Shown here: positions 18,596 through 60,176 of the stretch, piece by piece
Position numbering within the stretch: the stretch's first letter is position 1
Layout: each line of letters begins with the position of its first letter
DNA from: Streptantibioticus cattleyicolor NRRL 8057 = DSM 46488
GTDB taxonomy: Bacteria > Actinomycetota > Actinomycetes > Streptomycetales > Streptomycetaceae
Assembly (NCBI RefSeq): GCF_000240165.1
Contig: NC_017586.1
Location: 6,213,228-6,277,227 of the forward strand
DNA: 64,000 nt
Direction of reading: 5' to 3'
Position numbers and translations under genes: made by a program
The notes under the pieces: model-generated
Told to the model about the DNA's origin: nothing
Databases searched by the model: none
The model's input: the letters and a program-made list of their open reading frames with translations, nothing else

Positions 18596-18618
18596 CTAGC
18601 GGTTTGGTGGAGGTTGCC

Positions 18619-21194: not shown

Positions 21195-21197
21195 TAA

Positions 21198-23635: not shown

Positions 23636-23730
23636 GTGCGCCTTGGCTGGAGCACGTGATCGGACGAAGGTGGCCCCGGCGTCCGGCGGTTGCCCGGCCG
23701 GGCTGCCCGGTTCCGATGTGCCGTTCGCAG

Positions 23731-25000: not shown

Positions 25001-25025
25001 GGTACCGGTTATGCGGTTTGTTTTT
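25001..25025. promoter_or_regulatory. ARE-like site at the 3' end of the IS701-like gene
   Basis: GGTACC-N8-GGTTTGTTTTT, identical in layout and orientation to the site at 26291-26315. It overlaps the last codons of the IS701-like gene, so it may be a regulatory site, a repeat remnant, or both. Confidence 0.4.
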
Positions 25026-26196: not shown

Positions 26197-26290
26197 GCGA
26201 CCCCCTCCAGCATCGGTCTCCTGGTGATCCACGGCGGCTCCCATCCTGCGCGGTCCAAGGGGCGCCGGCGCCAGGGAAACCTGACGAAAT

Positions 26291-26315
26291 GGTACCAGGC
26301 ATTTGGTTTGTTTTT
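26291..26315. promoter_or_regulatory. ARE-like operator upstream of the IS701-like gene
   Basis: GGTACC-N8-GGTTTGTTTTT lies 95-119 bp upstream of the IS701-like start in an AT-rich patch. Its ACC-N8-GGTTTG core equals that of the dyad upstream of the StrR-like gene. It is a predicted binding site for the GBL receptor. Confidence 0.5.
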
Positions 26316-27255: not shown

Positions 27256-27915
27256 GTGCCGGTGACGGTCGATGTGTGGTTCGACTACATCTGCCCGTTC
27301 AGTCTGATCGCCCGCCGGGTCGTGGCGGGCGCGCTGGCCGACCGGGACCGAAACGGAACCGGGAACGGAGACGGGGACGGGACCGTGGACGGGGAGGGCC
27401 GGGTGGAGGTGTGCTGGCGGCCGTTCGAGCTGAACCCCGACTGCGCGGAGGAGGCGGGGGAGTACCCGCGGGGAGTGTGGGAGAACTCGGTGCTCCCGCT
27501 GGCCGCGCGGTACGGGGTGGCGCTGGGCCGGCCGCCGGGCCGGGTGCTGCGGCGCAGCCGGGCGGCGTTCACCGGCTACCAGTACGCGGCCGAGCACGGG
27601 GCCGGGACCGCCTACAACGACCTGGTCTTCTCCGCCTACTTCCAGCAGGGGATGGACATCTCCGACACCGCGGTGCTGGCACTGCTGGCCGGCCGGGTGG
27701 GCCTGGACCGGCGCGACTTCCGCGCCGCGCTGGGCTCCCCGCGCTACACCGACCGGCATCTGCGGGCGGTGGCCGAGGCGCGCCGGGTGGACCGGGTCTC
27801 GATGGTGCCCACCGTGGCGATCGGCTCGTGGCGGGTGGAGGGCGTTCCCAGTACGGAACAGATCCAGCGCGCGCTGGCCGGCGCGCGGGCCCGCCAGACC
27901 CCGGCCGCCTTGTGA
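27256..27915 (+). CDS. DsbA-family oxidoreductase (FrnE/HCCA isomerase-like)
   Basis: A 219-residue thioredoxin-fold protein starting VPVTVDVWFDYICPFSLIARR, with WRPFELNP, an alpha-helical insertion and the cis-Pro segment VSMVPTVAIGSWRVEGVPS. It belongs to the FrnE/2-hydroxychromene-2-carboxylate isomerase-like DsbA group. The usual CxxC is CPFS, a single cysteine. The GTG at 27256 is supported by GGAGG six bases upstream. The loop at residues 32-48 (DRNGTGNGDGDGTVDG) is a low-complexity insertion. The 119-bp repeats begin at its stop codon. Substrate unknown. Confidence 0.85.
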   Translation: MPVTVDVWFDYICPFSLIARRVVAGALADRDRNGTGNGDGDGTVDGEGRVEVCWRPFELNPDCAEEAGEYPRGVWENSVLPLAARYGVALGRPPGRVLRRSRAAFTGYQYAAEHGAGTAYNDLVFSAYFQQGMDISDTAVLALLAGRVGLDRRDFRAALGSPRYTDRHLRAVAEARRVDRVSMVPTVAIGSWRVEGVPSTEQIQRALAGARARQTPAAL

Positions 27916-28280
27916 CCCCGGCCCTCGTGCGGCACCGGCCGCGCCGCGGCCCCGGATCCTGTCCGGTACGGGCCCGTGTCGCGGCCCGGATCCTCTGCGT
28001 CCCCGGCTGCGCCGGTGCCCCGGCCGCCTTGTGACCCCGGCCCCTGTGCGGTACCGGCTGCGCCGTGGGCCCGGATCCTGTCCGGTACGGGCCCGTGTCG
28101 CGGCCCGGATCCTCTGCGTCCCCGGCTGCGCCGGTGCCCCGGCGGCTGCGTGACCCCGGCCCCTGTGCGGTACCGGCTGCGCCGTGGGCCCGGATCGTCT
28201 GCGTCCTCGGCTGCGCCGGTGCCCCGGCGGCTGCGTGGTTCCGGCTGCGCCGTGACGCCGGCCGTTCTGTAGCCCCGGCT
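27907..28280. repeat. 119-bp tandem repeat downstream of the DsbA-like gene
   Basis: Two near-complete 119-bp units begin at 27907 and 28026 (GCCTTGTGACCCCGGCCC...CGGATCCTGTCCGG). A third shortened unit starts near 28145 and a fragment near 28230. The first unit overlaps the last codons and stop of the DsbA-like gene, so the array seems to have grown out of its 3' end. Confidence 0.8.
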
Positions 28281-38425: not shown

Positions 38426-39376
38426 ATGAGTCGAAACCCTGACCGCGTCCGCAAGGCGGTCATTCCGGTGGCCGGTCTCGGAACGCGTTTTCTGCCGGCC
38501 ACGAAAGCGACCCCGAAGGAAATGCTGCCGGTCGTCGACAAGCCGGCCATCCAGTACGTGGTGGAGGAGGCCGTGGCCGCCGGGCTGTCGGACCTGCTGA
38601 TGGTCACCGGCCGCAACAAGAGGCCGCTGGAGGACCACTTCGACCGCAATTACGAGCTCGAGGAGATCCTGCAGCGCAAGGGCGAGGACGAGAAACTGGC
38701 CCGGGTCCTGGAACCCAACGACATGGCCGACATCCACTACGTGCGCCAGGGCGACCCGCGCGGCCTGGGCCACGCGGTGCTGTGCGCGGCCCCGCACGTG
38801 GGCACCGACCCCTTCGCCGTCCTGCTCGGCGACGACCTGCTCGACCCGCGCGACCCGCTGCTGCCGTCGATGATCGAGACCCGCGAGCGGTTCGGCGGCT
38901 CGGTGGTGGCGCTGATGCAGGTGCCGGCCGACCAGATCCACCTGTACGGCTGCGCGGCGGTGGAACACACCGGTCCGGGACCGGTGGTACGCATCACCGA
39001 CCTGGTCGAGAAACCCGCCGCCGACCAGGCCCCCAGCACCTACGCGGTCATCGGCCGCTACGTGCTGGACGCCGGTGTCTTCGGCGTGCTGCGCACCACC
39101 GCGCCCGGCCGCGGCGGGGAGATCCAGCTGACCGACGCGCTGCGGCAGATGGCCCGCACCGGCGACGCCGGCCCGGTGCACGGCGTGGTGTACACCGGGC
39201 GCCGCTACGACACCGGCGACCGCGCCGACTACCTGCGCGCCACCGTGCGCCTGGCGTGCGAACGCGAGGACCTGGGCGGGGACTTCCAGCGCTGGCTGCT
39301 GTCCTTCGTCGACCGCGAACTGCGCCCCGCCCCCGCCCCGGCTCCGGCCGCGGCCCACGAGGACAGCGCCGCCTGA
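38426..39376 (+). CDS. galU: UTP-glucose-1-phosphate uridylyltransferase
   Basis: A 316-residue GalU with VIPVAGLGTRFLPATKATPK, EMLPVVDKPAIQYVVEEA, FAVLLGDDLLDP and VEKPAADQAPS. It makes UDP-glucose from UTP and glucose-1-phosphate. The A/P-rich C-terminus is unremarkable. No ribosome-binding site precedes ATG 38426; instead TATCGT lies about nine bases upstream, the spacing expected of a -10 box for a leaderless transcript. The gene sits just upstream of the StrR-like regulator and could supply UDP-glucose to the neighbouring pathway, in addition to any housekeeping copy elsewhere. Confidence 0.95.
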   Translation: MSRNPDRVRKAVIPVAGLGTRFLPATKATPKEMLPVVDKPAIQYVVEEAVAAGLSDLLMVTGRNKRPLEDHFDRNYELEEILQRKGEDEKLARVLEPNDMADIHYVRQGDPRGLGHAVLCAAPHVGTDPFAVLLGDDLLDPRDPLLPSMIETRERFGGSVVALMQVPADQIHLYGCAAVEHTGPGPVVRITDLVEKPAADQAPSTYAVIGRYVLDAGVFGVLRTTAPGRGGEIQLTDALRQMARTGDAGPVHGVVYTGRRYDTGDRADYLRATVRLACEREDLGGDFQRWLLSFVDRELRPAPAPAPAAAHEDSAA

Positions 39377-39898: not shown

Positions 39899-41032
39899 AT
39901 GGCTGTCGTCAGTGTGCCGACGGCGCAGCAGGACATGGCCGGTCAGGCGTCGTTGGTGGCGGGGGAGGGCGCCGGTGGTCTGAGTGAGCCTCAGCTGGTG
40001 CCGCTCGGGCTGCTGCTGCCGGCCGATTCACCGCGCCGCAGCGCGGACAACGCCGATCACGCCCGGTCGCTCGCCGAGTCCGAGAACGGGTTCCCGCCGA
40101 TCACCGTGCACCGGCCCTCGATGCGGGTGATCGACGGGATGTACCGGGTACGGGCGGCGGAGCTGCGCGGCCAGGCCCATATCGAGGTGCGGTTCTTCGA
40201 CGGTTCGCCGGAGGACGCCTTCGTGCTGGCGGTGCGGTCCAACATCGGGCACGGGCTGCCGCTGTCGCTGGCCGAGCGCAAGGCGGCGGCGGCCCGGATC
40301 GTGCTCTCCCACGCCCACTGGTCGGACCGGGCGATCGCGGCGGTCACCGGGCTGGCGGCCAAGACGGTGGCCTCGCTGCGGCGTTCGGCCGCGCGCGGCA
40401 CCGAGCAGCCGCAGGCGCGGATCGGGCGGGACGGGCGGCGCCGGCCGCTGGACAGTGCCGAGGGGCGCCGCCGGGCGGTGGAGCTGATCACCCGCAGCCC
40501 GCAGGCGTCGCTGCGGGAGGTCGCCAAGGCGGCCGGGATCTCCCCGGGCACCGTGCGCGACGTGCGCAGACGCCTGGCCAGCGGACTGGACCCGATACCG
40601 GCGCAGCGGCGGGCCGCGGCCCGGCCGGCCCCGGCGGCCCCGCCGCGCGGCGCGCAGCCGGCGGCGGTGCGCTCCGGCGGCCAGGTCCGGGCCCGTATCA
40701 CCGCCGCGCGCACGCATCCGTCCCTGGCCCGTCCGGCTGCCGCGGGGGCGGCCGGACGGGTGCTGGGCCCCGCCGCGCTGCGCGGCGGTGCGGACCGGGA
40801 CCGGGAGGCGATGTTCAAGGCGCTGTGCCGCGACCCCTCGCTGCGGCACTCGGAGACCGGACGGCTGCTGCTGCGGATGCTGGAGATGCACGCGATGGCC
40901 CCGCAGCAGTGGCAGGCGGTCACCGACGCCGTCCCGGCCCACTGCGCGGACCTGGTACGGGCGCTGGCCGCCGAATGCGCCCGCTCCTGGCAGGAGTTCG
41001 CCACCGTGGTGGCCCGGGGCCGGTGTGCCTGA
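39899..41032 (+). CDS. StrR/NovG-type pathway-specific regulator (ParB-like DNA-binding)
   Basis: A 377-residue protein with the StrR-family core: ENGFPPITVHRPSMRVIDGM (residues 62-81), HIEVRFFDGSPEDAFVLAV, LPLSLAERKAAAARIVLSH, a helix-turn-helix at 141-162 (WSDRAIAAVTGLAAKTV) and a second at about 204-226. StrR activates streptomycin biosynthesis downstream of the A-factor cascade; relatives control novobiocin and glycopeptide clusters. A strong ARE-like dyad lies upstream, so it probably links GBL signalling to the genes to its right. The Ala/Pro-rich linker at 230-300 is typical. ATG 39899 is preceded by GAGGGGG. Confidence 0.9.
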   Translation: MAVVSVPTAQQDMAGQASLVAGEGAGGLSEPQLVPLGLLLPADSPRRSADNADHARSLAESENGFPPITVHRPSMRVIDGMYRVRAAELRGQAHIEVRFFDGSPEDAFVLAVRSNIGHGLPLSLAERKAAAARIVLSHAHWSDRAIAAVTGLAAKTVASLRRSAARGTEQPQARIGRDGRRRPLDSAEGRRRAVELITRSPQASLREVAKAAGISPGTVRDVRRRLASGLDPIPAQRRAAARPAPAAPPRGAQPAAVRSGGQVRARITAARTHPSLARPAAAGAAGRVLGPAALRGGADRDREAMFKALCRDPSLRHSETGRLLLRMLEMHAMAPQQWQAVTDAVPAHCADLVRALAAECARSWQEFATVVARGRCA

Positions 41033-41652: not shown

Positions 41653-43176
41653 ATGTCGGCGGTGGATGAGGTATATGCGGATGCGGGCCGGACCGGCCCG
41701 CGCTCCGGGGCCGGCCCGGGTACGGGCGCGGACCCGGCAACGGGCGGTGGCGGGGGCGCCGCGCCGAGGATGACCGGCCGTCAGCGGCTGGTGCTGGTGG
41801 TGCTGCTGGTCGCGCAGTTCATGCTGGCGGTGGACTTCTCGATCCTGAACGTGGCGCTGCCGCAGATCGGCAAGGGGCTGGGCTTCTCGCTGGCGAACCT
41901 GCAGTGGATCGCCACGACGTTCGCGCTGTGCGCGGCCGGGTTCACGCTGCTGTTCGGGCGGGTGGCCGACCTGTTCGGGCGGCGCCGGCTGTTCCTGGTG
42001 GGCCTGGCGGTGCTGGGTGCCTCCTCGCTGGTGGGCGGGCTGGCCGTGGACCCGGCGATGCTGCTGTGCGCGCGGGTGGCGCAGGGTCTTGCCACCGCGT
42101 GCGTGACCCCGGCCGGGCTGTCGCTGCTGACCACCTCCTTCCCCGAGGGGCCGCTGCGGGACAAGGCGCTGGGCCTGAACGGGGCGCTGATGTCGGCGGG
42201 GTTCACCACCGGCGCGATCCTGGGCGGGGTGCTGACCGACCTGCTCTCGTGGCGCTGGTCGTTCTTCATCAACGTGCCCGTGGCCGTGGTGGTCCTGGTG
42301 GTCGCCCCGGCGGTGCTGTCCGAGTCGCGGCCCAAGCAGCGGCCCCGTCTGGACGTGCCGGGCGCGGTGACCGTCACCGCCGGCCTGCTGGCCATCGTCT
42401 TCGGCCTGACCCAGGCCGGTGACCACGGCTGGGGCAGCGCGCCGGCGCTGGCCCCGCTGATCGCCGGCGTCGTGCTGCTGGTCGCCTTCTACTTCGTGGA
42501 GGCCAAGGCCGCCTCCCCGCTGGTGCCGGTGTCCATCCTCAAACGGCGCACCGTCATCTTCGGCAACCTGGCCGGCCTGATCGCCTTCATCACCGAGACC
42601 TCCCTGGTCTTCTTGATGACCCTGTACATGCAAGAGGTGCTGGGGTACTCGCCGCTGGCGGCCGGGCTGTCCTTCGGCGTGCTGGGGGTGGGCACCATCA
42701 TCGGCGGCGCGGTGGCCGCCAGGGTGATCGCGGCCACCTCCACCCGGGTGACCCTGGCCGCCGGCGGCCTGCTGCAGACCGCGGCCACCGCCGTGCTGCT
42801 GCTGCTGGGCGCCCAGCACTCCTCGATCTGGCTGCTGCTGGCCGGCACCTTCGCCGGCGGCGTCGGCAACATGCTGGTCATCGTCGGCTTCATGGTCACC
42901 GCCACCTCCGGCCTGGCCGACCACGAACAGGGCATGGCCACCGGGCTGGCCACCATGACCCAGCAGATCGGCATCACCATGGGCACCCCGATCATGTCCG
43001 CGATCGCCACCTCGGTGATCGCCGGCCGTGCCGGAGGCGGCCCGGTCCTGGACGGGGTCCGCCTGGCGGTGGCCGTCAACGCCGCCGTCGTCCTGGCCGG
43101 CGCGCTGATCGTGCCCGCCGTCCTGCCCCGCCGCACCGCCGCCGCCCCGGCCCCCGCCGCCGCGGGCGGGGCGTAA
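41653..43176 (+). CDS. MFS drug exporter (DHA2/EmrB-QacA type)
   Basis: A 507-residue, probably 14-helix transporter. After a Gly/Ala-rich N-terminus it has the DHA2 signature FMLAVDFSILNVALPQIGKG, GRVADLFGRRRLFLVG (motif A) and GAILGGVLTDLLSWRWSFFI (motif C). Proteins of this kind export antibiotics and confer self-resistance. ATG 41653 follows GGGAG at eight bases. It is the first structural gene after the StrR-like activator and a likely self-resistance exporter for the cluster product. Confidence 0.93.
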   Translation: MSAVDEVYADAGRTGPRSGAGPGTGADPATGGGGGAAPRMTGRQRLVLVVLLVAQFMLAVDFSILNVALPQIGKGLGFSLANLQWIATTFALCAAGFTLLFGRVADLFGRRRLFLVGLAVLGASSLVGGLAVDPAMLLCARVAQGLATACVTPAGLSLLTTSFPEGPLRDKALGLNGALMSAGFTTGAILGGVLTDLLSWRWSFFINVPVAVVVLVVAPAVLSESRPKQRPRLDVPGAVTVTAGLLAIVFGLTQAGDHGWGSAPALAPLIAGVVLLVAFYFVEAKAASPLVPVSILKRRTVIFGNLAGLIAFITETSLVFLMTLYMQEVLGYSPLAAGLSFGVLGVGTIIGGAVAARVIAATSTRVTLAAGGLLQTAATAVLLLLGAQHSSIWLLLAGTFAGGVGNMLVIVGFMVTATSGLADHEQGMATGLATMTQQIGITMGTPIMSAIATSVIAGRAGGGPVLDGVRLAVAVNAAVVLAGALIVPAVLPRRTAAAPAPAAAGGA

Positions 43177-43366: not shown

Positions 43367-44155
43367 ATGGCGATCGATCTGCACCTGGACGGCCGGGTGT
43401 TCGTGGTGACCGGGGCCTCCTCCGGGATCGGCCTGTGCTGCGCCCGGCTGCTGGCCGCCCAGGGCGCCCGGGTGGTGGCGGTGGCCCGCCGCCCGCTGCC
43501 CGCCGACGCCGGCCCGCACATCACCGCCGTGGCCGGCGACCTGACCGACCCGCGCACCGCGCAGGAGGCCGCGCAGACCGCGCTGCGCGCCCACGGCCGC
43601 ATCGACGGCCTGGTCAACAACGCCGGCGCGCTGACCTCCCGCACCGGCTTCCTCCAGGTCACCGACGACGACTGGCAGCAGACCTTCGCCACCAACTTCC
43701 ACTCCGCGGTGCGCATGACCCGCGCCGTGCTGCCGGCCATGATCGAACGCGGCGAGGGCGCGCTGGTGCACATCGCCAGCGAGGCGGCCCGTTTCCCCGC
43801 CCCGGCCCTGGTGGACTACGCCGCCACCAAGACCGCGCTGCTGTCGGTCTCCAAGACCCTGGCCGCCGAGTTCGGCCCGCACGGCATCCGCTCGGTGGTG
43901 GTCTCACCCGGCCCCACCCGCACCGAACTGTTCGACGCCCCCGGCGGCTTCGCCGACCAGCTCGCCGCCGAATACGGCATGGACCCCGACGCGGCCGTCG
44001 ACCACTTCGTCCGCAACGAACGCCGCCTGCCCAGCGGACGCATCGGCACCCCCGCCGACGTCGCCCGCGTCGTGGCCTACCTGCTCTCCCCGCTGGCCGG
44101 CCAGGTCACCGGCACCGAATGGGCCGTCGACGGAGGCGCCCTGCGCCAGCTGTGA
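43367..44155 (+). CDS. SDR-family oxidoreductase
   Basis: A 262-residue classical short-chain dehydrogenase with TGASSGIGL, LVNNAGALTSRTGF, HIASEAARFPAPALVDYAATK (Ser and YxxxK catalytic residues) and VVSPGPTRTELF. The ending GQVTGTEWAVDGGALRQL is standard. The substrate is unknown; a role in tailoring the cluster product or in reducing the GBL precursor are both possible. It lies between the MFS gene and the ECF sigma gene, all on the + strand. Confidence 0.92.
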   Translation: MAIDLHLDGRVFVVTGASSGIGLCCARLLAAQGARVVAVARRPLPADAGPHITAVAGDLTDPRTAQEAAQTALRAHGRIDGLVNNAGALTSRTGFLQVTDDDWQQTFATNFHSAVRMTRAVLPAMIERGEGALVHIASEAARFPAPALVDYAATKTALLSVSKTLAAEFGPHGIRSVVVSPGPTRTELFDAPGGFADQLAAEYGMDPDAAVDHFVRNERRLPSGRIGTPADVARVVAYLLSPLAGQVTGTEWAVDGGALRQL

Positions 44156-44560: not shown

Positions 44561-46132
44561 GCCACCGGCGTCAGGCCCATCCCCGCGCCGCCGCAGCCCC
44601 CGTCCGCCCGGCATGCCTTCGCGGTGCCAGCAACTCCCGCCGGGCGCGCGGCCGTTGCCGGACGGACGGCCGACGCCGCCTCGCCGCAGGACCTGACGGC
44701 GCCCGCAACCGCTCCCAGCGGTGCGGCGGTTGCCGGACGGACGACTGATGCCTCCTTACCGCAGGGTTCTGCCGGACGGCAGGGCACGGCGGTGCGGACG
44801 GCTCCGGCCGCCCCGCCGGCCGCCGCCGAGGGGCACGCCCTCGCGGTGCCAGCAACCCCCGCCGTGCGCACGGAAGTTGCCGGACGGACGGCCGACGCCG
44901 CCTCGCCGCAGGCCCTGACCGTGCCCGCAACCGCCTCCAGCGGCACGGCAGCTGCCGGACAGCAGACCGGCCACACCCTGCCGCAGCCCCCTGCGGGACC
45001 GGCCGGGAGCACGCCCGGTGCGCGACGGCCGGCCGGCACCGCCGCGCCGCAGCCGCACGCGATACCCGCAACCGGCGCCGCAGGAACGGCCGTTGCGAAG
45101 CGGCCGGCCGCCCCGCCGGCGGGTGCCGAGGGCCGGCCCCCGGCCGCGCCACCGGCCACGGCGGTACCGGCAACCGCCGCCGGAGACCCCGTGGTTGCGC
45201 ACCGGGCGGACGGCGCCGGGGGAGAGCCGGGCCGGACGGTGCGGGGGGCTTCCGGCGGGCGGTTGTCCGGGGACGGCGCCGGGTTGCGCCCGTCCGGCGG
45301 TGCGCCGCGGGATCCGGCCGCAACGCAGCCGGCGGCCGGCGTGGAGCAGGAGAGCGCGCAGGACCGCACCGCGCGGTTCGAGCGGGACGCGCTGGTCCAT
45401 CTCGACCAGCTGTACGCCGCGGCGCTGCGGCTGACCCGGGACCGGCAGGACGCCGAGGACCTGGTGCAGGAGACGTACGCGCGCGCGTACCGGTGCTTCC
45501 ACCAGTTCCGGCCGGGGACCAATCTGCGGGCGTGGCTGCAGCGGATCTTGACGACGACGTTCATCAACGCCTACCGCAAGAAGAAGACCGAGCCGCCGCA
45601 GGCGCCGGCCGGGCAGATCGAGGACTGGCAGCTGGCGGGGGCGGCCTCGCGGCTGCCGGCGGGCGGGGAGTCGGCCGAGACGGCGGCGCTGCGCCGGATC
45701 TTCGACCCGGCGGTGGCCGAGGCGATGTCGTCGATCCCCTACGACCTGCGGCTGGTGGTCTACCTGGCCGATGTCGAGGGCTACGCCTACCGGGAGATCG
45801 CGGCGCTGACCGGGGTGCCGCAGGGCACCGTGACCTCCCGGCTGCACCGTGCGCGGCGCCGGCTGCGGGTGCTGCTGGCCCCCTACGATCCCGGTCACGG
45901 CGCCGGCCATGGCGCGCCCCGGCCGGGGGAGGGGGGCCCGCCGGGGTGCCAGCGGCCACGCGGCGGCGGGCGGGAGGCGCCGGCGCGCGGGCGGATCCCC
46001 GCCCAGCGCGGCCACCGCACCCCCGCCCCCGCCTCCGTCCCCGCCTCCGCCGCGACGGCGGGTTCCGCCGTGCCCGCGGTCTCCGGCGCGGGCCGGCCGG
46101 GCGGCGGGGCCGGGCAGGGGGGTGCGGGTTAG
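44354..46132 (+). CDS. SigR-like ECF sigma factor with a long repetitive N-terminal extension
   Basis: The sigma core (residues about 340-505) is closely SigR-like: [78 protein letters not shown], then sigma-4 [20 protein letters not shown]. SigR controls thiol-oxidative stress and is normally paired with the zinc anti-sigma RsrA, but no rsrA follows. About 330 residues precede the core: a 24-residue tandem repeat, then an A/P/T-rich stretch. GTG 44354 has GGGAG nine bases upstream. ATG 44250 has a better ribosome-binding site but is in another frame, so a one-base error or shift is possible; GTG 45341 would give a normal-sized factor. The stop abuts the next MFS start. Confidence 0.82.
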
Positions 46133-47751: not shown

Positions 47752-49437
47752 ATGAGCGCTCTACCCCGCCGTACCGTCCTGGCCGGCGGTGCCGCCGTGG
47801 CCTCCGCCGCGGCCCTGGCCGCCCCGGCCGCCGCCGCGCCGCGCACCGCCGCGGACGGCCCGGACGGCGGACGCGGCGGTGCGTCCGCCGCGCCGAAGGG
47901 GGACACCATCACCCCCTCCGACCCGCGCTACCCGCTGTACACCACGGGCAACAACCAGCGGTTCGTGGCCCGTCCCGAGTACGTCAAGACGATCCGTTCC
48001 ACCGCGGACGCCGAAGCGGCCGTGCGCGAGGCGGTCCGGACGGGCAAGCGCGTCGCGCTGCGCTCGGGCGGCCACTGCTTCGCCGACTTCACCTCCAACC
48101 CGCAGGTGCAGGTGCTGCTGGACCTGTCGGAGATGAACGCCGTCGGCTACGACCCGGCCCGCCGTGCCTTCTTCGTCGAGCCCGGCGCCCGCCTCTACAA
48201 CGTCTACGAGGGCCTGTACAAGGGCTGGGGGGTGACCATACCCGGCGGCATCTGCTGGAGCGTGGGGGCCGGCGGCCACATCGCCGGCGGCGGCTACGGC
48301 CTGCTCTCCCGCGCCCACGGCCTGGTGGTGGACCACCTGTACGCGGTGCAGGTGGTCACCGTCGGCCGCGGCGGGCAGGTGCGCACCGTGGTGGCCACCC
48401 GGGAGCCCGACGACCCCAACCGGGACCTGTGGTGGGCCCACACCGGGGGCGGCGGCGGCAACTTCGGTGTGGTGACCCGCTACTGGTTCCGCTCCCCGGG
48501 CGCCACCGGCACCGACCCCTCCCGCCTGCTGGTGCGGGCCCCCTCCACGGTGCTGGTCTCGGCGGCGGCCGTCGACTGGTCGGAGCTGACCGAGGCGAAG
48601 TTCGCCCGCCTGCTGAAGAACTTCGGCGCCTGGCACGAGGCCAACTCCGCGCCCACCTCCCCGTACCGCCACCTGAGCAGCCTGTTCAACGTCTCCCACA
48701 AGGCCCACGGCAGCCTGGGGATGTTCACCCAGATCGACGCGGCCGTCCCCGGCGCCCGCCGCATGATCGACGACTACATGGCGGCGCTGACCGCCGGCAC
48801 CGGGGTGACCCTCAAGCCGCTGGACCGCGCCGGCGGTGAACTGCCCGCCCTGCCCGGCATGCTGGCCCCCCGCGAACTGCCCTGGCTGCAGGCGTCCCGC
48901 CTGGTGGGGACCGACAACCCCACCATCACCAACCCCACCGCCCGCGGCGCCCACAAGTCGGCCTACATGCGCAAGAACTTCACCGACCACCAGATCGCCG
49001 CCCTGTACAAGGGCATGACCCGCCCCGACTTCCACAACCCCGACACCATGCTGGTGCTCTTCTCCTTCGGCGGGCAGGTCAACGCCGTCGCGGAGAACGC
49101 CACCGCCAACGCCCAGCGCAGCTCGGCGTTCAAGATGTGCCTGCAGACCTTCTGGACCGACGCCGCCGACGACCCGTTCTACCTGGGCTGGGCCCGTGAG
49201 GTGTACGAGGACTTCTTCGCCGCCACCGGCGGCGTCCCGGTCATCGGCGAGCGCACCGACGGCTGCTACATCAACTACCCCGACCGGGACGTCACCGACC
49301 CGGCCCGCAACCGCTCCGGCGTGCCGTGGACCACCTTGTACTACAAGGGCAACTACCCGCGCCTGCAGCAGGTCAAGAAGCGCTGGGACCCCACCGACTT
49401 CTTCCGCCACTCGATGTCGGTCAAGCCCGCCCGCTGA
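47752..49437 (+). CDS. Tat-secreted bicovalent-FAD oxidase (berberine-bridge/oligosaccharide-oxidase type)
   Basis: A 561-residue protein with a Tat signal (PRRTVLAGGAAVASAAALAA), an FAD-binding domain and a C-terminal BBE segment (TDGCYINYPDRDV). His108 in RSGGHCF and Cys168 in GGICWSVGAGGH occupy the positions that bind FAD through two covalent bonds in sugar oxidases such as GOOX. Such enzymes oxidise bulky sugars or natural-product alcohols outside the membrane. A strong hairpin follows. Next to sugar-nucleotide and aldos-2-ulose-dehydratase-like genes, a carbohydrate oxidation role is attractive. ATG 47752 has AAGGAG about nine bases upstream. Confidence 0.92.
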   Translation: MSALPRRTVLAGGAAVASAAALAAPAAAAPRTAADGPDGGRGGASAAPKGDTITPSDPRYPLYTTGNNQRFVARPEYVKTIRSTADAEAAVREAVRTGKRVALRSGGHCFADFTSNPQVQVLLDLSEMNAVGYDPARRAFFVEPGARLYNVYEGLYKGWGVTIPGGICWSVGAGGHIAGGGYGLLSRAHGLVVDHLYAVQVVTVGRGGQVRTVVATREPDDPNRDLWWAHTGGGGGNFGVVTRYWFRSPGATGTDPSRLLVRAPSTVLVSAAAVDWSELTEAKFARLLKNFGAWHEANSAPTSPYRHLSSLFNVSHKAHGSLGMFTQIDAAVPGARRMIDDYMAALTAGTGVTLKPLDRAGGELPALPGMLAPRELPWLQASRLVGTDNPTITNPTARGAHKSAYMRKNFTDHQIAALYKGMTRPDFHNPDTMLVLFSFGGQVNAVAENATANAQRSSAFKMCLQTFWTDAADDPFYLGWAREVYEDFFAATGGVPVIGERTDGCYINYPDRDVTDPARNRSGVPWTTLYYKGNYPRLQQVKKRWDPTDFFRHSMSVKPAR

Positions 49438-49465
49438 CCGGCCGCACATCTGCGCACCTCCCGAA

Positions 49466-49496
49466 GGGGCCCGCCGCCCGGCAAGCGGCGGGCCCC
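49466..49496 (+). terminator. Strong hairpin terminator after the FAD oxidase
   Basis: A perfect 12-bp stem (GGGGCCCGCCGC / GCGGCGGGCCCC) with a seven-base loop starts 29 bases after the oxidase stop. It likely ends the transcript that began upstream with the sigma/MFS genes. Confidence 0.75.
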
Positions 49497-50120
49497 CGCC
49501 CGTTCCCCCACCCCCGGCCCCGGCCCCGAAGCCCGGCGGATACGCCTGCGGGGCCCGGGAGCGCCCTTCGCGGCAACGGGACGGCGGCGCCCCGGAAGAA
49601 GGGCCCCTGCCGCCGGGCCGGAACGCCCTCGCGGCCCGTGGCCGTGCCCGCGGCCCCCGCCCCGGCGGGACGCCCCCGGAGCCCGTCCGGACGCCGCCTG
49701 CGGGGGCACACGCCCGTGTCCCGTGACCGTGCCCGCCGCCCTGCCTGTGCAACTGCCGTGAACGACACGCCGGCCGGGCCTGCACGTCCGGCACCGCACG
49801 CAAGGGGGCCGCCCCCTTCCCGCCTGCCGCGCCGCCCTGTTCCCGGGCAACTCCCGTGACCGCCGCGCCCGTTCGGGCCGCAGCGCCGTCCCGCGTCAGC
49901 TCCCGCAGCCGTCCGCCTCCCCGGAACTCCTTGCGTGCCCGGCGTGTACAGCGCGTCCGGCGGCGTTTGCACACCCGCTTGCACACCGCGGTGGCGGTGC
50001 GGGCCGGGGTGCGGGGGCGGGTGCAGCCGCTGGTCACCGGGGGTACGGCGGCGGGGTGCGGGGCGGCGGGGCGGCAGGCGGGCGGGCGGGGCGGCGGGCG
50101 GGGCGGGGGGAGGAGGGCCG
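49497..50120. other. Intergenic region, no clear gene
   Basis: About 600 bp of GC-rich DNA between the terminator and the regulated promoter of the UDP-GlcNAc 2-epimerase gene. I see no coding signal on either strand. Confidence 0.5.
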
Positions 50121-50160
50121 TTGACACCGAGATAGCTCACGGGAAAGCTATCTAGTGAGC
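50121..50160 (+). promoter_or_regulatory. Promoter with overlapping operator dyads upstream of the epimerase-AUDH genes
   Basis: A consensus -35 box TTGACA (50121-50126) is followed by a perfect dyad AGATAGCT-N8-AGCTATCT (50130-50137, 50146-50153) and an overlapping GCTCAC...GTGAGC pair (50135-50140, 50155-50160). A TATCTA at 50149-50154 could be part of the -10 region. The dyad covers the promoter, as expected for repression by a MarR- or TetR-like protein. It drives the block 50376-55619 if the genes are co-transcribed. Confidence 0.6.
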
Positions 50161-50375
50161 GATCCGGGGAGCGGGAAACTCCCGCCCCCGGCGCAAGGCC
50201 CCCGCCCCACCGGCCGGGCGGCGCCCCGCACCACGCACCACGGGCGCCCCGGCCGCCGCGGAGGAGCACGGCACCACACGGCCCGTACCCCGGCCCGCGG
50301 CCCTCACCGGCCGCCACGGCCGGCCGCGGACCGGATGCGCCATCCGACCCCGATCCACCCGAAGGGAAGACACCC

Positions 50376-51595: not shown

Positions 51596-52318
51596 ATGAG
51601 CACCGCCACCGCCCCGGCCACCGTGACCCGGCTGAACTTCTCCGGCCCCCACCTGCGCGCCGACCTCGTCCGCCACGCCCGCGGCCACCTCGTCGAAGGC
51701 CAGGCCATCGTCGTCAACCCCACCCCGCACCCGGTCACCGTCGACCACCACCCCCGCAAACCGATCCCCGCACTGTCCTCGGCGATCCTGACCGACGCCC
51801 GCATCACCGCCGCCGACACCCTGCTGGTCATCCGCACCGGCCCCGTCCCCCGCCCCGCCGACGTCGCCGCCGCCCCGGCCTGGACCCGCCTGTCCGACCT
51901 GCTGCCCGGCTTCCCCGCCACCACCGCACTGTGGCGCAGCCGCCAGGACGACGCCGGCACCGTCCACTTCGACCCCGCCCACCTGCTGGGCGAGACCACC
52001 GTCCCCGCCGCCCCCCAGCCGTTCGCCGTGAAGGTCAACGCCTGGTACGCCCCGGCCGGCACCGACTGCGGCATCCACAACGAACACCCCTTCATCGAGG
52101 TCCACACCCAGACCCACGGCACCGGCCGCATGCAGAAGTTCGCCACCGCCGACCCCGCCACCCGCTACCTCGACCTGCCCATGGCCCCCGGCTACACCAC
52201 CCCCGACCCCTTCTGCTCCACCACCCCCGACGGCACCTTCCGCTACCCGTGGCACCAGTACCGCGCCGACACCGACAGCATCTGGCTCGCCGTCGAGTAC
52301 CACCGCGTCACCGCCTGA
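51596..52318 (+). CDS. Cupin protein matching the C-terminal part of aldos-2-ulose dehydratase
   Basis: A 240-residue protein whose second half is a cupin: KVNAWYAPAGTDCGIHNEHP (residues 146-165), FIEVHTQTHGTGRMQKF, and FRYPWHQYRADTDSIWLAVE. His161, His164, Glu168 and His170 form a plausible metal site. From memory this resembles the cupin region of fungal aldos-2-ulose dehydratase/isomerase (AUDH), including the spacing to the PWH segment. The partner propeller domain is encoded by the next gene, 84 bp downstream. AUDH dehydrates glucosone and 1,5-anhydrofructose to pyrones. The order here is cupin first, opposite to the fungal fusion. Confidence 0.75.
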   Translation: MSTATAPATVTRLNFSGPHLRADLVRHARGHLVEGQAIVVNPTPHPVTVDHHPRKPIPALSSAILTDARITAADTLLVIRTGPVPRPADVAAAPAWTRLSDLLPGFPATTALWRSRQDDAGTVHFDPAHLLGETTVPAAPQPFAVKVNAWYAPAGTDCGIHNEHPFIEVHTQTHGTGRMQKFATADPATRYLDLPMAPGYTTPDPFCSTTPDGTFRYPWHQYRADTDSIWLAVEYHRVTA

Positions 52319-52402
52319 CCCGCACCCCCGACACAACACAACACAACACGGCACAGCACCCGGCATCCGACCCGCACCACACCCGGCGAAGGAGCAACCG
52401 CG

Positions 52403-53725
52403 ATGACCAGCAACCGCACCCCCGGCCTGCGCACCCCGAAGTTCACCCCGGAGGTCGTCGCCGACCAGCTGCGCGACGGCTACTGGCTCGAAGCCCCCGA
52501 CATCGACGCCGACCACCGCCCCGACCTGTTCGGCTACGGCCTGCGGCTGGGGGAGATCTACTGGTACCACAACGACGGGCAGTGGACCCGCCGGCTGGTC
52601 ACCGACCGCGTCCCCATGCCGGTCGGCGGCGACTACGCCGACATCACCGGCAACGGCCACCCCGACATCGTCTTCTGCTACGACCTGTACGGGCCGATCG
52701 GCACCATCCACGACGCCAACACCGCCGGCGGCAAGATCGACTGGCTGGAGAACCCGGGCGCCCCGCACAAGGACGAGTCCCGCTGGAAGCGCCACTACGT
52801 GGGCCGCGCCACCGGCATGCACCGGCTGCGGGTGGGCCACTTCACCCAGACCGAGCGCCTGGAGATCGTCGGGGTGCCGATCGTGGCCAAGGAGGACGTC
52901 CACGCCGTCCTGCCGGTGGTGATGTTCACCCAGCCCGACAACGTGCGCGAGGCCGAGGAATGGCCGATGACCATCGTCGACGACACCCACTTCCGCATGA
53001 TCCACGGCGCCGAGAAGAAAAAGGGCCTCATCCCCGGCGACCCCGAACGCGACTCGCTGCTGTTCGCCTCCGACGAGGGCGTGACCTGGCTGTACTGGGA
53101 CACCGGCACCCGGCAGTGGATCAGGAAACTCATCGGCACCGGCGAGCGCACCCAGTTCGAGCTGACCGGCTTCCGCGGCAGCGGGGACGTCAACGCCGGC
53201 CGCATCGGCGACGACCCGATGGCCTACGTCGCCGCGATCGAGCCCTTCCACGGCAACACCGTCGCCGTCTACACCAAGGCCACCGACGGCCCGGCCGGCG
53301 AGGTGGAGTGGAACCGCGTCCTGCTGGACGTCTACGGCGACCCCAACGAGAACGGCGAGGGCCCCGGCCACCAGATCGTCTGCGCCGACTTCGACGGCGA
53401 CGGCGAGGAGGAGTTCCTGGTCGCCCTGCGCGGCCCGTGGCCCTGGCAGGGCGTGATGTACTACAAGGCCATCGACCTGAAGGCCGGCATCTGGGCCAAG
53501 TGGCGGGTCTCCGACGAGTCCGTGGCCCGCATCGCCACCGCCGACTTCAACGGCGACGGCCGCCTGGACTTCGCCACCATCGCCTACTCGGTCCAGAACT
53601 ACTACGTCGCCAAGGACGCCAAACTGATGGTCTACCGCAACGCCATCGGCGACCAGGACCCCGCCGACACCCCGGAGCCCGACTTCGGCTTCGGCCCCGG
53701 ATACGGCGAGTACGGCGAGCACTGA
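52403..53725 (+). CDS. Beta-propeller (FG-GAP/VCBS) protein matching the N-terminal part of aldos-2-ulose dehydratase
   Basis: A 440-residue cytosolic beta-propeller with FG-GAP-like calcium loops (ADITGNGHPDIV, ADFDGDGEEEFLVAL, ADFNGDGRLDFATI). Beyond the generic repeats it shares specific segments with fungal AUDH as I recall it: DGYWLEAPD, KIDWLENPG, TGMHRLRVGHFTQTERLEIV, VGVPIV, EPFHGNTVAVYTKA, HQIVCADFDGDGEEEFLVAL and RIATADFN...TIAYSV. It lacks the C-terminal cupins, which are supplied by the preceding gene. I read the pair as a split two-subunit dehydratase. The ATG follows AAGGAG. Confidence 0.78.
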   Translation: MTSNRTPGLRTPKFTPEVVADQLRDGYWLEAPDIDADHRPDLFGYGLRLGEIYWYHNDGQWTRRLVTDRVPMPVGGDYADITGNGHPDIVFCYDLYGPIGTIHDANTAGGKIDWLENPGAPHKDESRWKRHYVGRATGMHRLRVGHFTQTERLEIVGVPIVAKEDVHAVLPVVMFTQPDNVREAEEWPMTIVDDTHFRMIHGAEKKKGLIPGDPERDSLLFASDEGVTWLYWDTGTRQWIRKLIGTGERTQFELTGFRGSGDVNAGRIGDDPMAYVAAIEPFHGNTVAVYTKATDGPAGEVEWNRVLLDVYGDPNENGEGPGHQIVCADFDGDGEEEFLVALRGPWPWQGVMYYKAIDLKAGIWAKWRVSDESVARIATADFNGDGRLDFATIAYSVQNYYVAKDAKLMVYRNAIGDQDPADTPEPDFGFGPGYGEYGEH

Positions 53726-55785: not shown

Positions 55786-56616
55786 ATGACCCGCACCCCC
55801 GACCACCCGACCGCCCAGCCCGGCCGCCCGGCCGTCACCGGCAGCGTGCACGCCGGCGGCGCCGACATCGCCTACACCGCCGCCGGCCGCGGCCCGGGCC
55901 TGCTGCTCGTCCACGGCTCGACCGCCGACTCCGAGGCCAACTACGCCGGGCTGCGCCCGCTGTTGACCGGCCACCGCACCGTGATCACCGCCGACTACGC
56001 CGGCAGCGGCGCCACCGCCCTGCCGCCGGGCGGGGAGCTGACCGTGGACCTGCTGGCCGAGCAGATGGCCGCGGTGATCCGCGCGGCCGGCCCCGGCCCG
56101 GTCGACGTGGCCGGCGCCTCCCTGGGCGCGGTCGTCGCCGCCGCCCTGGCCGCCGCCCACCCGCACCTGGTGCGCCGCCTGGTCCTCATCGGCGGCTGGG
56201 CCCGCAACGACGACCCGCGCCAGCGCCTGGCCCTGGGCCTGTGGCACCACCTGGCCCGCACCGACCGCACCGCCTACCAGCAGTTCATCACCTTGCTGTC
56301 ACTGTCCCCGCAGGCCCTGTCCGCGCTCGGACCGGACGGCATCGCCCGCGCCGCCGCAGCCGCCGAACCCACCGAAGGCGCCATCCGCCAGATCGAACTG
56401 GACCTGGCCGCCGACATCCGCGACCGCCTGCCGCACATCACCGCCCCCACCCTGGTCATCGGCGCCCGCCAGGACCAGGTCATCCCCGTCACCCACGCCC
56501 GCGAACTCCACCAGGCCATCGCCGGCTCCCGCTACGCCGAACTCGACTGCGGCCACAACATCCCCTTCGAAGCCCCCGCCGACCTCGCCCGCCTGATCGA
56601 CACCTTCCTGACCTGA
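55786..56616 (+). CDS. Alpha/beta hydrolase
   Basis: A 276-residue alpha/beta-fold hydrolase with an oxyanion segment LLLVHGSTADSEANY, nucleophile elbow GASLGAV (Ser), the acid in GARQDQVIPVTHA and the final His in LDCGHNIPFEAP. The catalytic triad is complete. The substrate is unknown. Its 3' end overlaps the convergent deaminase gene by 85 bp. Confidence 0.9.
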   Translation: MTRTPDHPTAQPGRPAVTGSVHAGGADIAYTAAGRGPGLLLVHGSTADSEANYAGLRPLLTGHRTVITADYAGSGATALPPGGELTVDLLAEQMAAVIRAAGPGPVDVAGASLGAVVAAALAAAHPHLVRRLVLIGGWARNDDPRQRLALGLWHHLARTDRTAYQQFITLLSLSPQALSALGPDGIARAAAAAEPTEGAIRQIELDLAADIRDRLPHITAPTLVIGARQDQVIPVTHARELHQAIAGSRYAELDCGHNIPFEAPADLARLIDTFLT

Positions 56617-57146
56617 CCCCCGCCCGCCCCCCGGTCCCGTCGCACCGGCCCCGCGCGCCCACCCGGGCACGCGGGGCCGGAGCGTTCCGGCCGCCGGCAA
56701 GGCCAGCGCGGGGCACCCTCGTCGAACGGCCAGACGTCGTCGGCGAACACCCGCGCGAACCAGTGCGGCTGGACGTCCCGCAGCCGCAGCGTGCGCCAGC
56801 GCCGCGGATCGGCCGGCTCGGGCACCGCGACCTGCACATCGGGCCCGTAGGCGAACAGCCGCTCCTGGCAGACACCGCACGGAGCCAGGATCCCGTACCC
56901 GGCCCCGGCCCCGGCAGCGGTCACGCACACCGACGCCACCACACGCCGCCCCCGCTTGAACGCCTCGCAGATCGCCCCCGTCTCATGACACAGCGCCACC
57001 GCGCTGTCGGGCGCCTGCGGGGCCGTACTGGTCAGCACCGTCCCGTCCTCCAGACGCAGCGCCGCCGCCCCGGACCACTGCCGCCCCGCGAAACGCGTAC
57101 GCGCCAACTGGACCGCGGCATCCACCAGTTCCTGATCGACAGCCAT
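56532..57146 (-). CDS. Cytidine deaminase-family protein with extended C-terminus
   Basis: A 204-residue protein with a cytidine/blasticidin-S deaminase-like zinc site: ALCHETGAICEAFK (Cys and catalytic Glu) and LAPCGVCQERLFAYGP (PCxxC). The domain should end near DDVWPFDEG at about residue 140. The frame then continues for over 60 Arg/Gly-rich residues into the 3' end of the convergent hydrolase gene, so the natural stop was probably lost. Likely role: pyrimidine nucleoside salvage or detoxification of a nucleoside-like compound. ATG 57146 is set from the domain start. Confidence 0.85.
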   Translation of the reverse strand: MAVDQELVDAAVQLARTRFAGRQWSGAAALRLEDGTVLTSTAPQAPDSAVALCHETGAICEAFKRGRRVVASVCVTAAGAGAGYGILAPCGVCQERLFAYGPDVQVAVPEPADPRRWRTLRLRDVQPHWFARVFADDVWPFDEGAPRWPCRRPERSGPACPGGRAGPVRRDRGAGGGQVRKVSIRRARSAGASKGMLWPQSSSA

Positions 57147-57264
57147 GCCCGCACCGTAACCGACGCACCCCCCGCCGGGGGACTTCGGGCGCGCACGGGC
57201 CACGGCCCCGGAGGCAGGATGCCCCCGGGGCCGTCACGGCGCGGAACACGGAAGAGCGGGGCGC

Positions 57265-58263
57265 TCAGGCGGCCCCGGCGGTCACCACGCGGGCCGCGTC
57301 CGCCACGGTGGCGGGCGGGCGCAGCGCGAAGGCCTCGGCGAGCAGCTGGTAGGAACGCAGCCGGTCGGCGGGGTCGTGGGTGAGGGTGTTGACCACCACC
57401 TCCCGCACACCGTGGGCGGCGGCCAGTTCGCTGATGGCGGCGTGGACCTGCTCGGGGGTGCCGTGCAGCACCGAGGGACGGTGCACCGCGGCCCGCTCCC
57501 GTTCCCGGGAGGACCAGCGGTGGGCGCGCACGGTGGCCGCCGACGGCAGCGGACGGTCCTCGCCCAGGTCCTTGCGGGCCCGCCACAGCAGCATCGCGTC
57601 GGCCAGCTGCGTGGCCTTCGCCGCGGTGTCGGCGGTCACCGCGCGCACCGCCAGCACCCCCTGCCCGCCACCGTCCGCCACCGGCCCGGCGGCCAGCGCC
57701 TGCCGGTAGGCGGCGAACGCCGCACCCCCCGGCGCCGGCGCCAGGAAATGCGCGAAGGCGAACGAGGTCCCCAGCGCCCCGGCCAGCTGCGCCGAACGCG
57801 TCCCCGCCCCCAGCAGCCACACCTGCGGCGGCACCACCCCGGACGGCATCACCGCCTCGTGCGCGTCCCCGCCCGCACCCCCCAGGTAGGCCAGCACCTG
57901 CGCCACCTGCTCGGGGAAACGCTGCGCCGGCCCGCCGGCCCGCCCCAGCCCCAGATCGATCCGCCCCGGATACACCGCGGCCAGCACCTTGAACACCTCG
58001 GCGACCTTCACCGGGTCGTACCGCGGCAGCAGCACCCCTCCGGTGCCGATCCGCAGGTGACGGGTCCGCCCCAGCAGCACCGCCGCCAGGATCTCCGGGG
58101 CGCTGCCGGCGAACCCGGGGGAGTGGTGGTGCTCGGCCACCCACAGCCGGGTGAACCCCAGCACGTCCAGGGCCTGCGCCAGTTCCACCGAGGCGCCCAC
58201 CGCCCCGGCCGCGGTGCCCTCCTCGGCCACCGGCGTCTGGTCCAGTACCGACAGGCGCAGCAT
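57265..58263 (-). CDS. LLM-class flavin-dependent oxidoreductase
   Basis: A 332-residue luciferase-like TIM-barrel protein (LSVLDQTPVAEEG, FTRLWVAEHHHSPGFAGSAP, HLRIGTGGVLLPRYDPVKVA, IDLGLGRAGG). It probably uses FMNH2 to oxygenate or reduce an unknown substrate. The start codon is fused to the stop of the upstream gene (TGATG), so the two are translationally coupled. The group matching AEHHHSPG is widespread in actinomycetes and poorly characterised. Confidence 0.9.
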   Translation of the reverse strand: MLRLSVLDQTPVAEEGTAAGAVGASVELAQALDVLGFTRLWVAEHHHSPGFAGSAPEILAAVLLGRTRHLRIGTGGVLLPRYDPVKVAEVFKVLAAVYPGRIDLGLGRAGGPAQRFPEQVAQVLAYLGGAGGDAHEAVMPSGVVPPQVWLLGAGTRSAQLAGALGTSFAFAHFLAPAPGGAAFAAYRQALAAGPVADGGGQGVLAVRAVTADTAAKATQLADAMLLWRARKDLGEDRPLPSAATVRAHRWSSRERERAAVHRPSVLHGTPEQVHAAISELAAAHGVREVVVNTLTHDPADRLRSYQLLAEAFALRPPATVADAARVVTAGAA

Positions 58264-58829
58264 CACCGCCGCCCCCCTTCCTCGACTCCACCGGCGGCCC
58301 GCGGGCCACCGGTGATCACCGGAACGATCTCGTAGGTGCGCTGGAAGACCAGGTTGTGCAGGTCGGAGGCGGCGATCGCCCGCAAGGTGGGCACCTCGTC
58401 GGCCGCCTGCTGCGCGGTGAAGACGTTCAGCGGCCAGTCGGCCACCGTCGCCCCGCGCAGATGCGGATGGTGGAAACCGGAACCGTAGAAGGCGTGCAGC
58501 GTCACCGGCGCGATCCGCTGCGCCCGCTGCTCGGGCCACGACAGCGTCCACGCGGCGGCCAGCGACCGGTCCGCGGTGCGCACCACCCCGGTGGCCTCCA
58601 CCTGCCCGGTGTCCAGCATCAGATGGGTGTTGAACTCCTGGAGCACCTGCCGGGCATAGGGGTCCAGCAGCTCCACCGCGGTACGGAACAGCGCCTCCTT
58701 GCCCTGCCGGGAGGCCGCGTCACCGTGCCTCCCGTCCCGCAGGTCGCAAAAGTGCCGGACCAGCGCCTGCACCACCGGCGGCTGCGCGCCGGGGGCGGCC
58801 TGCCGGCCGGCGGGGGCGGGACTGCTCAT
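58263..58829 (-). CDS. Hypothetical protein coupled to the LLM oxidoreductase
   Basis: A 188-residue soluble protein I do not recognise with certainty. Visible features: VVQALVRHFCDLRDGRHGD, SRQGKEALFRTAVELL, a beta-rich middle with TGQVEATGVVRTADRSLAAA and WPEQRAQRIAPVTLHAFYGS, and a conserved-looking HPHLRGATVADWPLNVF. No signal peptide or membrane helix. The alternation of helices and strands could suit an NTF2-like fold, but this is not established. It is coupled to the flavin enzyme by a TGATG overlap, which suggests a joint function. Confidence 0.75.
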   Translation of the reverse strand: MSSPAPAGRQAAPGAQPPVVQALVRHFCDLRDGRHGDAASRQGKEALFRTAVELLDPYARQVLQEFNTHLMLDTGQVEATGVVRTADRSLAAAWTLSWPEQRAQRIAPVTLHAFYGSGFHHPHLRGATVADWPLNVFTAQQAADEVPTLRAIAASDLHNLVFQRTYEIVPVITGGPRAAGGVEEGGRR

Positions 58830-59025: not shown

Positions 59026-59919
59026 TCAGGCACCCCGGCCGGCCGCGGGCGCGGGAACCTCCAGCGCGCGCACCGCCGACCCCAGCCAGCGGCGCAGCGC
59101 GTTGCCGGCCGGCGCCCGCCCCGGCAGCCCCCGGCCCGCCGGGGCGATGAACGCGCCGTGGCCCAGCAGCGGGAACTCCCGCGTCACCACCGGCACCCCC
59201 GCCTGCCCCAGACGGCGCGCGTAGGTACGCGAGTCGTCGGCCACCGGGTCCCGCCCGCCGAAGGCGATCACCGCCGGCGGCAGCCCGGACAGCTGCGGCG
59301 CGTGCAGCGGCGTGCTGTACAGCCGTATGCCGTCCGCGGCCACCGGCTCCCCCTCCCCTTCGCCGCGGTAGTCGCGCCAGGCGGCCATCAGCCCTTCCCG
59401 GTCGGGGAAACCGCCGGGGTTGCGGTGGTAGGAGGGGGCCAGGCAGGCCGGGTCCAGCGGCGGGTAGGCCAGCACCTGCGCGGCCAGCGGCCGGCTACCG
59501 CCGTACCGGTCACGCCAGGCCAGGGCCGCCCCGGCGGCCAGTGTCCCGCCGGCGCTGTCCCCGCCCACGGCCACCCACGGCCGCCCGCCCGCACCGTCAC
59601 CGGCCGCCTGCGCCCAGGCCCACTCCACCGCCGCCAGCACATCGCACAGCGCCGCCGGATGCCGGTGCGCCGGCGCCAGCCGGTACTCCACACCCACCAC
59701 CCGGGCCCCGGACTGCACCGCCAGGTCCGCGCACGCCTCCTGCCAGCCGGCCACCGACCCGGCCCGCCAGCTGCCGCCGTGCGCCCACACCAGCCACCGG
59801 CCCCCCTGCACCCCGCCGGCCGGGCACAGCACCCGTACCGGCACCCGGCGGCCGTCACCCGGCACGGTCCCGGACTGCCACACGACGCCGTCCGGCGCCG
59901 GCGATGCGGTGGGGGTCAT
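59026..59919 (-). CDS. Alpha/beta hydrolase (hormone-sensitive-lipase family)
   Basis: A 297-residue esterase-like protein with the HSL oxyanion motif WAHGGSW, nucleophile elbow GGDSAGGTLAAG (Ser), the acid in FGGRDPVADDS and the final His in LLGHGAF. It also carries GVEYRLAPAHRHPAALCDV, typical of this family. ATG 59919 follows AGGAGG by six bases; an ATG two codons earlier is possible. The divergent MmyB-type regulator is 257 bp away and may control it. Confidence 0.9.
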   Translation of the reverse strand: MTPTASPAPDGVVWQSGTVPGDGRRVPVRVLCPAGGVQGGRWLVWAHGGSWRAGSVAGWQEACADLAVQSGARVVGVEYRLAPAHRHPAALCDVLAAVEWAWAQAAGDGAGGRPWVAVGGDSAGGTLAAGAALAWRDRYGGSRPLAAQVLAYPPLDPACLAPSYHRNPGGFPDREGLMAAWRDYRGEGEGEPVAADGIRLYSTPLHAPQLSGLPPAVIAFGGRDPVADDSRTYARRLGQAGVPVVTREFPLLGHGAFIAPAGRGLPGRAPAGNALRRWLGSAVRALEVPAPAAGRGA

Positions 59920-60176
59920 GGCCATCCTCCTCGCGAAACCAGCAATCGGCACAACACAACAACACGGGTACGACACAACACCGCGGACACGACACAACAA
60001 GGCACACAGCACAGCGGCCCGCTCCGGCACTCCGCGGTGACACCACCTCAGAATGCGCCCCGCCGGGCGGCGTTACCCAGCCACCTGGGCAAGGTAGGCG
60101 CCGCCAGGGTAGGAACGCGCAGGGTACGCACGCCAGGGACACCCTGCCCGGCCGCCGGCGGGCGACACTGAAACAC

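Follow-up and report, generated by a model that had tools for sequence, protein, structure and literature searches.

A split aldos-2-ulose dehydratase-like gene pair and its WecB-type neighbour in Streptantibioticus cattleyicolor: a plausible new route to sugar-derived pyranones

Aldos-2-ulose dehydratase (AUDH) is known from fungi, where it makes antibacterial pyrones from oxidised or anhydro sugars, and 1,5-anhydrofructose is one of its known substrates. The active site reportedly holds Zn, and in the work of Claesson et al. (2012) His155 is said to be the proposed acid/base of the dehydration. A nitrogen-bearing relative of this substrate exists in 2-acetamidoglucal, which has the skeleton of the 1,5-anhydrofructose enol with NHAc replacing the C2 oxygen.

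Glucan lyase yields the enol of 1,5-anhydrofructose (PMC12441222). The non-hydrolysing, Streptomyces-type UDP-GlcNAc 2-epimerase KasQ forms UDP-ManNAc as the first step of kasugamycin biosynthesis; the wild-type enzyme also releases 2-acetamidoglucal (23.8% against 9.2% UDP-ManNAc in 12 h), and its Gly287 contacts the UDP beta-phosphate (PMC8869731). AUDH-like bacterial proteins are already catalogued as a family in Pfam. In the literature searched, with most subscription journals outside it, we found no description of a bacterial AUDH, of its split form or of the three genomic contexts reported below; a new pathway is plausible.

Here we analysed a stretch of 64,000 nucleotides (the window) from Streptantibioticus cattleyicolor NRRL 8057 = DSM 46488 (GCF_000240165.1, NC_017586.1, positions 6,213,228-6,277,227). 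A sequence-only reading had proposed that it encodes a two-gene AUDH acting on glucosone or 1,5-anhydrofructose. We compared both proteins with fungal AUDH by profile and structure searches, and examined the gene neighbourhoods of their relatives (Table 1).

Table 1. Features of the cluster in the window, in positional order
Position	Strand	Feature	Evidence
38522..39376	+	sugar-nucleotidyltransferase, outer part of cluster	PF00483; orthologues in 5 relatives
39956..41032	+	pathway-type HTH regulator, StrR-like by eye	HTH matches; orthologues in 6 relatives
41770..43176	+	second MFS transporter	PF07690; 74-78% identical in 8 relatives
43367..44155	+	short-chain dehydrogenase/reductase (SDR)	PF13561; conserved in 11 relatives
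45341..46132	+	ECF-type sigma factor, in minority of clusters	PF04542/PF08281
46133..47587	+	MFS exporter, CmrA-like	NF033135 353 bits, below cut-off; conserved
47752..49437	+	BBE-type FAD oxidase; proposed late oxidation	PF01565 + PF08031
50376..51542	+	WecB-type UDP-GlcNAc 2-epimerase, AUDH-linked clade; proposed UDP-GlcNAc lyase	TIGR00236, clade, loop change
51596..52318	+	double cupin of AUDH type, predicted isomerase/tautomerase subunit	Foldseek 4a7z, PF18637 sub-cut-off, synteny
52403..53725	+	seven-bladed beta-propeller of AUDH type, predicted Zn dehydratase subunit	4a7k match, PF22301, Foldseek, conserved residues
54312..55619	+	membrane acyltransferase_3, possible alternative start 54177; product O-acylation proposed	PF01757 6.9e-30; conserved beside propeller
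55786..56616	+	alpha/beta hydrolase, some clusters only	PF00561
57265..58263	-	MsnO8-family LLM oxidoreductase, side module	TIGR03558 297 bits; 9 relatives
58263..58829	-	conserved protein, side module	no Pfam or NCBIfam match
59026..59925	-	esterase/lipase, side module	PF07859
60177..61049	+	conserved regulator, XRE-type by eye, divergent from side module	11 relatives

Propeller and cupin subunits

Both ORFs lie on the forward strand where the sequence-only reading had placed them, with a third-position GC of 0.98 in each, a strong bias, and all the motifs it quoted are present (DGYWLEAPD, KIDWLENPG, GMHRLRVGHFTQT, EPFHGNTVAVYTKA, IHNEHPFIEVH and YPWH). Chance can be discounted, as the 440-residue propeller protein matched fungal AUDH (PDB 4a7k) in phmmer at E=1.2e-74 over some 400 residues (11-411), and the Pfam profile PF22301 (AUDH_beta_propeller) at 1e-55 (188.8 bits, cut-off 27). 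No other PDB protein was matched by phmmer up to E=10. In Foldseek, the predicted model (pLDDT 82.6) matched 4a7k with a TMq of 0.82 and 36% identity, the next folds having 8-14% identity. The suspected likeness to AUDH hence extends over the whole length of the propeller and beyond generic FG-GAP repeats, and by sequence and fold the ORF is assigned as a true AUDH propeller.

Fifty-four propellers, 50 of them different, were aligned with fungal AUDH. The fungal positions H155, R156, H215, E292, H295 and H337 are invariant in 54/54 sequences, the catalytic H155 being aligned with H140 of the window protein, and a dehydratase site of the Zn/His155 type is predicted. The position of fungal H98, a possible site residue that was not taken as defining AUDH, varies: it is D77 in the window and Asp in every WecB-linked propeller, His in three of the four glucan-lyase-linked ones, and half His, half Asp in those linked to pyranose oxidase. 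This variation may reflect substrate class.

For the cupin protein (240 residues), in which the HxxHxxxExH and YPWH motifs are conserved, sequence and profile searches against the PDB gave chance matches only and did not recover AUDH, so that a fold search was needed. Its AlphaFold model (pLDDT 90.7) found AUDH 4a7z as the top PDB structure (TMq 0.61), other double cupins such as oxalate decarboxylase, BacB and vicilins reaching a TM of about 0.30. PF18637 (AUDH cupin) matched at 8.8e-5 with 22.5 bits, under its cut-off of 25, and at E<=0.01 in 5 of 14 orthologues. The claimed likeness of the cupin to AUDH was thus borne out by its best solved-structure match and fell short of the Pfam cut-off in sequence; weak as the sequence evidence is, the model identifies the ORF as an AUDH-type double cupin, with a predicted isomerase-type site. 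Neither protein turned out to have generic folds only or better matches to unrelated families.

The split, the cupin-first gene order and the cluster setting noticed earlier are real: 240 and 440 residues in two ORFs stand against a single fungal chain of 900 residues. Cupin and propeller genes are adjacent in many relatives, spaced by -4 to +84 bp; at 7 of the 15 loci for which the spacing was determined, stop and start codons overlap. The ORFs would represent a bacterial AUDH divided into two subunits.

A WecB-type neighbour and the rest of the cluster

Upstream of the pair lies a gene absent from the sequence-only reading, whose product matched TIGR00236 with 390.3 bits (cut-off 210.15). 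Almost every cupin and propeller pair is accompanied by such a WecB, in 33 loci from Streptomyces to Pseudomonas that span Actinomycetota, Paraburkholderia and Pseudomonas. The AUDH-linked WecBs form one clade (support 100/100). The loss of a catalytic residue was considered and rejected, as R10, K15, D95, E117, E131 and H213 are kept in 33/33 enzymes. The same 33 share a change in the UDP beta-phosphate loop TDSGG[IV], which reads SDSSG[SA] (SGG to SSG), while the SGG loop with Gly291 is kept in 18/18 canonical WecB enzymes. From motif and numbering, Gly291 of E. coli WecB probably corresponds to Gly287 of KasQ.

The window WecB is the only one of the 8.1-Mb genome, in which a search found no WecG-type ManNAc transferase. 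Three NDP-sugar dehydrogenases are encoded elsewhere in the genome and could in principle use UDP-ManNAc.

The BBE oxidase has orthologues of 68-78% identity in 13 clusters, and its N-terminus, read by eye, has an RR/Ala-rich export-like signal. The nucleotidyltransferase encoded in the outer part of the cluster is a hint of NDP-sugar chemistry. A 939-bp gap (49438-50375) that separates the genes of the BBE oxidase and WecB holds no convincing ORF; it measures about 165 bp in one relative (L024). The conserved protein of the side module belongs to a family of about 180 residues, which nine AUDH clusters of Streptomycetaceae share at 61-70% identity. A cytidine-deaminase-like ORF (56532-57203, minus strand; PF00383 E=6e-4, below cut-off) lies between the alpha/beta hydrolase and LLM genes. 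Farther upstream, about 13 kb of the window (about 17000-30500) contain few convincing genes and many GC-rich tandem repeats, and the ORF 25009-28545 (minus strand) there has a match to DDE_5 transposase.

Distribution and genomic contexts

Of 396 genomes in the family to which the window belongs, 22 contain PF22301; of 397 sampled from the phylum, 3 do, one with a match below cut-off. Its occurrence is therefore rare and patchy. A contig scan revealed close relatives in Streptomyces, Kibdelosporangium, Saccharothrix, Nocardiopsis, Arthrobacter, Brevibacterium, Cryobacterium, Promicromonospora, Paraburkholderia, Pseudomonas, Roseococcus, Paenibacillus and cyanobacteria. The two genome collections overlap, some loci with identical rows being the same genome.

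Three contexts were distinguished. The window and 32 further loci combine cupin, propeller and WecB, usually accompanied by the acyltransferase_3, BBE oxidase, SDR and MFS genes and by the side module of LLM oxidoreductase, conserved protein, esterase and regulator. Most loci devoid of WecB have in its place a GH31 protein of the glucan-lyase type or a pyranose oxidase.

The GH31 context, in which cupin and propeller adjoin a protein of about 1010-1070 residues, was seen in Paenibacillus and three cyanobacteria. The best PDB match of the Paenibacillus catalytic fragment is the alpha-1,4-glucan lyase 2x2h, and all four proteins carry WQDMT, as against DMNE or DVNE in hydrolases, and TNIT with a lyase-type Asn (N459; PMC12441222). 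These putative alpha-1,4-glucan lyases beside a split AUDH are found at L064:2164-7303, L066:907-6154, L067:9983-15277 and L068:10150-15221. Together with the split AUDH they probably make up a complete bacterial anhydrofructose pathway.

In the third context (12 loci, often with GH15 or GH65) the propeller is found with an IolE-like TIM barrel and a pyranose oxidase, both of which exceeded the NCBIfam cut-offs in the member scanned. These cassettes are at L041:9390-13359 and L042:1085-4986 and in L039, L040, L044, L055-L057, L071, L072, L074 and L075. Among the loci compared, none with pyranose oxidase has the cupin and none with the cupin has pyranose oxidase or IolE, as if the IolE-like protein replaced the cupin. 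Since the GH31 and pyranose oxidase contexts supply known AUDH substrates, 1,5-anhydrofructose in the one and the 2-keto sugar glucosone in the other, they support the dehydratase reading of the family.

In the propeller tree the association with pyranose oxidase arose twice, in separate groups; the glucan-lyase-linked group is nearest to fungal AUDH, on a long branch that calls for caution; and the WecB-linked propellers are not one clade, two changes being needed.

A possible pathway, its alternatives and known systems

In the window genome no pyranose oxidase scored over cut-off and no glucan lyase was recognised; its main GH31 carries the hydrolase motif DMNE. A supply of sugar by either enzyme of this genome is unsupported, and the glucosone and 1,5-anhydrofructose suggested earlier find no backing as substrates at this locus. 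The conserved partnership with WecB points instead to a substrate derived from UDP-GlcNAc.

The reading we favour, tentatively and at somewhat less than even odds, is that WecB releases 2-acetamidoglucal for the AUDH pair, and that later enzymes finish and export a natural product. Homology, synteny, conserved catalytic residues and a WecB clade with its own loop signature are observed; from them we infer the lyase outcome and the substrate hand-over. The dedicated WecB would eliminate UDP from UDP-GlcNAc and, rather than re-adding it to give UDP-ManNAc, would let go of 2-acetamidoglucal and UDP, thus taking the place of glucan lyase. The propeller would then remove water across C3-C4 of 2-acetamidoglucal, and the cupin would rearrange the dehydrated sugar into an acetamido pyranone, whose putative structure resembles ascopyrone or microthecin. 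In a conjectural order of late steps, the SDR would reduce, the acyltransferase acylate and the exported BBE oxidase oxidise the product, to be exported by the MFS pumps. On a slightly more guarded footing, the clusters may represent a nitrogen version of the anhydrofructose pathway, in which a WecB turned lyase and a split AUDH would provide a new class of acylated, exported amino-pyranones in actinobacteria and some proteobacteria.

Several points speak against this route. The main chemical doubt arises because 2-acetamidoglucal is an enamide and lacks the free C2 ketone that known AUDH substrates offer for Zn to polarise; nor does the cluster show an evident deacetylase. The possible NDP-sugar chemistry of the outer nucleotidyltransferase and of the three NDP-sugar dehydrogenases also counts against the route. 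Fungal H98 is replaced by Asp in the WecB-linked propellers, which do not form a clade, and a WecB with every catalytic residue may be an ordinary epimerase. In that event WecB would make UDP-ManNAc; this nucleotide, or else free ManNAc, would be oxidised by the SDR or another enzyme to a keto-aminosugar, which the AUDH pair would dehydrate. The retained residues, the SDR and nucleotidyltransferase of the cluster, and the role of KasQ in kasugamycin formation (PMC8869731) all fit such a sequence of events. However, the change in the beta-phosphate loop is invariant, no glycosyltransferase or NDP-sugar dehydrogenase was recognised among the annotated cluster genes, and most clusters of the Arthrobacter type, of Cryobacterium and of Paraburkholderia showed no SDR, which makes this explanation unlikely in our view.

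We consider it about as improbable that the pair is a conventional AUDH acting on 1,5-anhydrofructose or glucosone, with WecB serving another step and the sugar coming from outside the cell or from a side reaction of ordinary alpha-glucosidases. GH31 hydrolases do leak traces of 1,5-anhydrofructose (PMC12441222), the AUDH homology is full-length, and homologues stand beside glucan-lyase-type GH31 or pyranose oxidase in other bacteria; yet the window genome yielded no recognisable glucan lyase and no pyranose oxidase over cut-off, and the partner linked across phyla is instead a WecB with its own clade signature. That the propeller merely binds sugar or acts as a scaffold, the cupin being an unrelated enzyme and the AUDH likeness lying at the level of fold, is very improbable. 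FG-GAP propellers are often binding proteins (PMC8023676), and the cupin match is sub-threshold, but 36% identity across the full propeller, the invariance of the catalytic His and other polar residues, and AUDH as the only close fold match of both subunits argue against it.

A split bacterial AUDH with three interchangeable feeders (glucan-lyase-type GH31, pyranose oxidase and WecB) suggests a modular route by which bacteria turn ordinary sugars into reactive pyranones. If the WecB version is true, a leaky intermediate of a cell-wall enzyme has become a committed natural-product precursor. The cluster points to an undescribed sugar-derived natural product, and the combination of propeller, cupin and SDSSG-type WecB offers a genome-mining handle for unknown compounds.

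The literature searched yielded no cluster in which a UDP-GlcNAc 2-epimerase gene occurs together with cupin and FG-GAP/VCBS genes, and such neighbours go undiscussed in papers on pyranose oxidases of actinobacteria. The paulomycin cluster was rejected as a known match: its 'pyranose oxidase' match proved to be CetL-like and to belong to another cluster, one devoid of cupin, FG-GAP and 2-epimerase genes.

Among the closest described systems is the AUDH of Phanerochaete chrysosporium (4a7k/4a7y/4a7z), with which the window shares propeller sequence, fold and conserved residues including His155, as well as the fold of the double-cupin partner. The window pair differs in having two genes in reversed domain order, no C-terminal lectin domain, Asp for H98, and linkage to WecB rather than to pyranose oxidase. 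The window WecB resembles E. coli WecB (1f6d) and KasQ in family, catalytic residues and the expected elimination via 2-acetamidoglucal; in contrast to these, it belongs to a separate clade, carries SDSSG[SA] for TDSGG[IV], and has AUDH genes, not those for polymers or aminoglycosides, as its companions. The route from pyranose oxidase and AUDH to cortalcerone has its counterpart in the bacterial clusters that pair this oxidase with the propeller, whereas these have the IolE-like TIM barrel for the cupin and the window genome has no such oxidase over cut-off. Finally, the anhydrofructose pathway of fungi and red algae (alpha-1,4-glucan lyase, dehydratase and tautomerase) likewise leads from a 1,5-anhydro enol sugar to a small pyrone, and bacterial glucan-lyase homologues adjoin the cupin and propeller genes; the proposed entry in the window would instead be UDP-GlcNAc, giving a nitrogen-bearing analogue.
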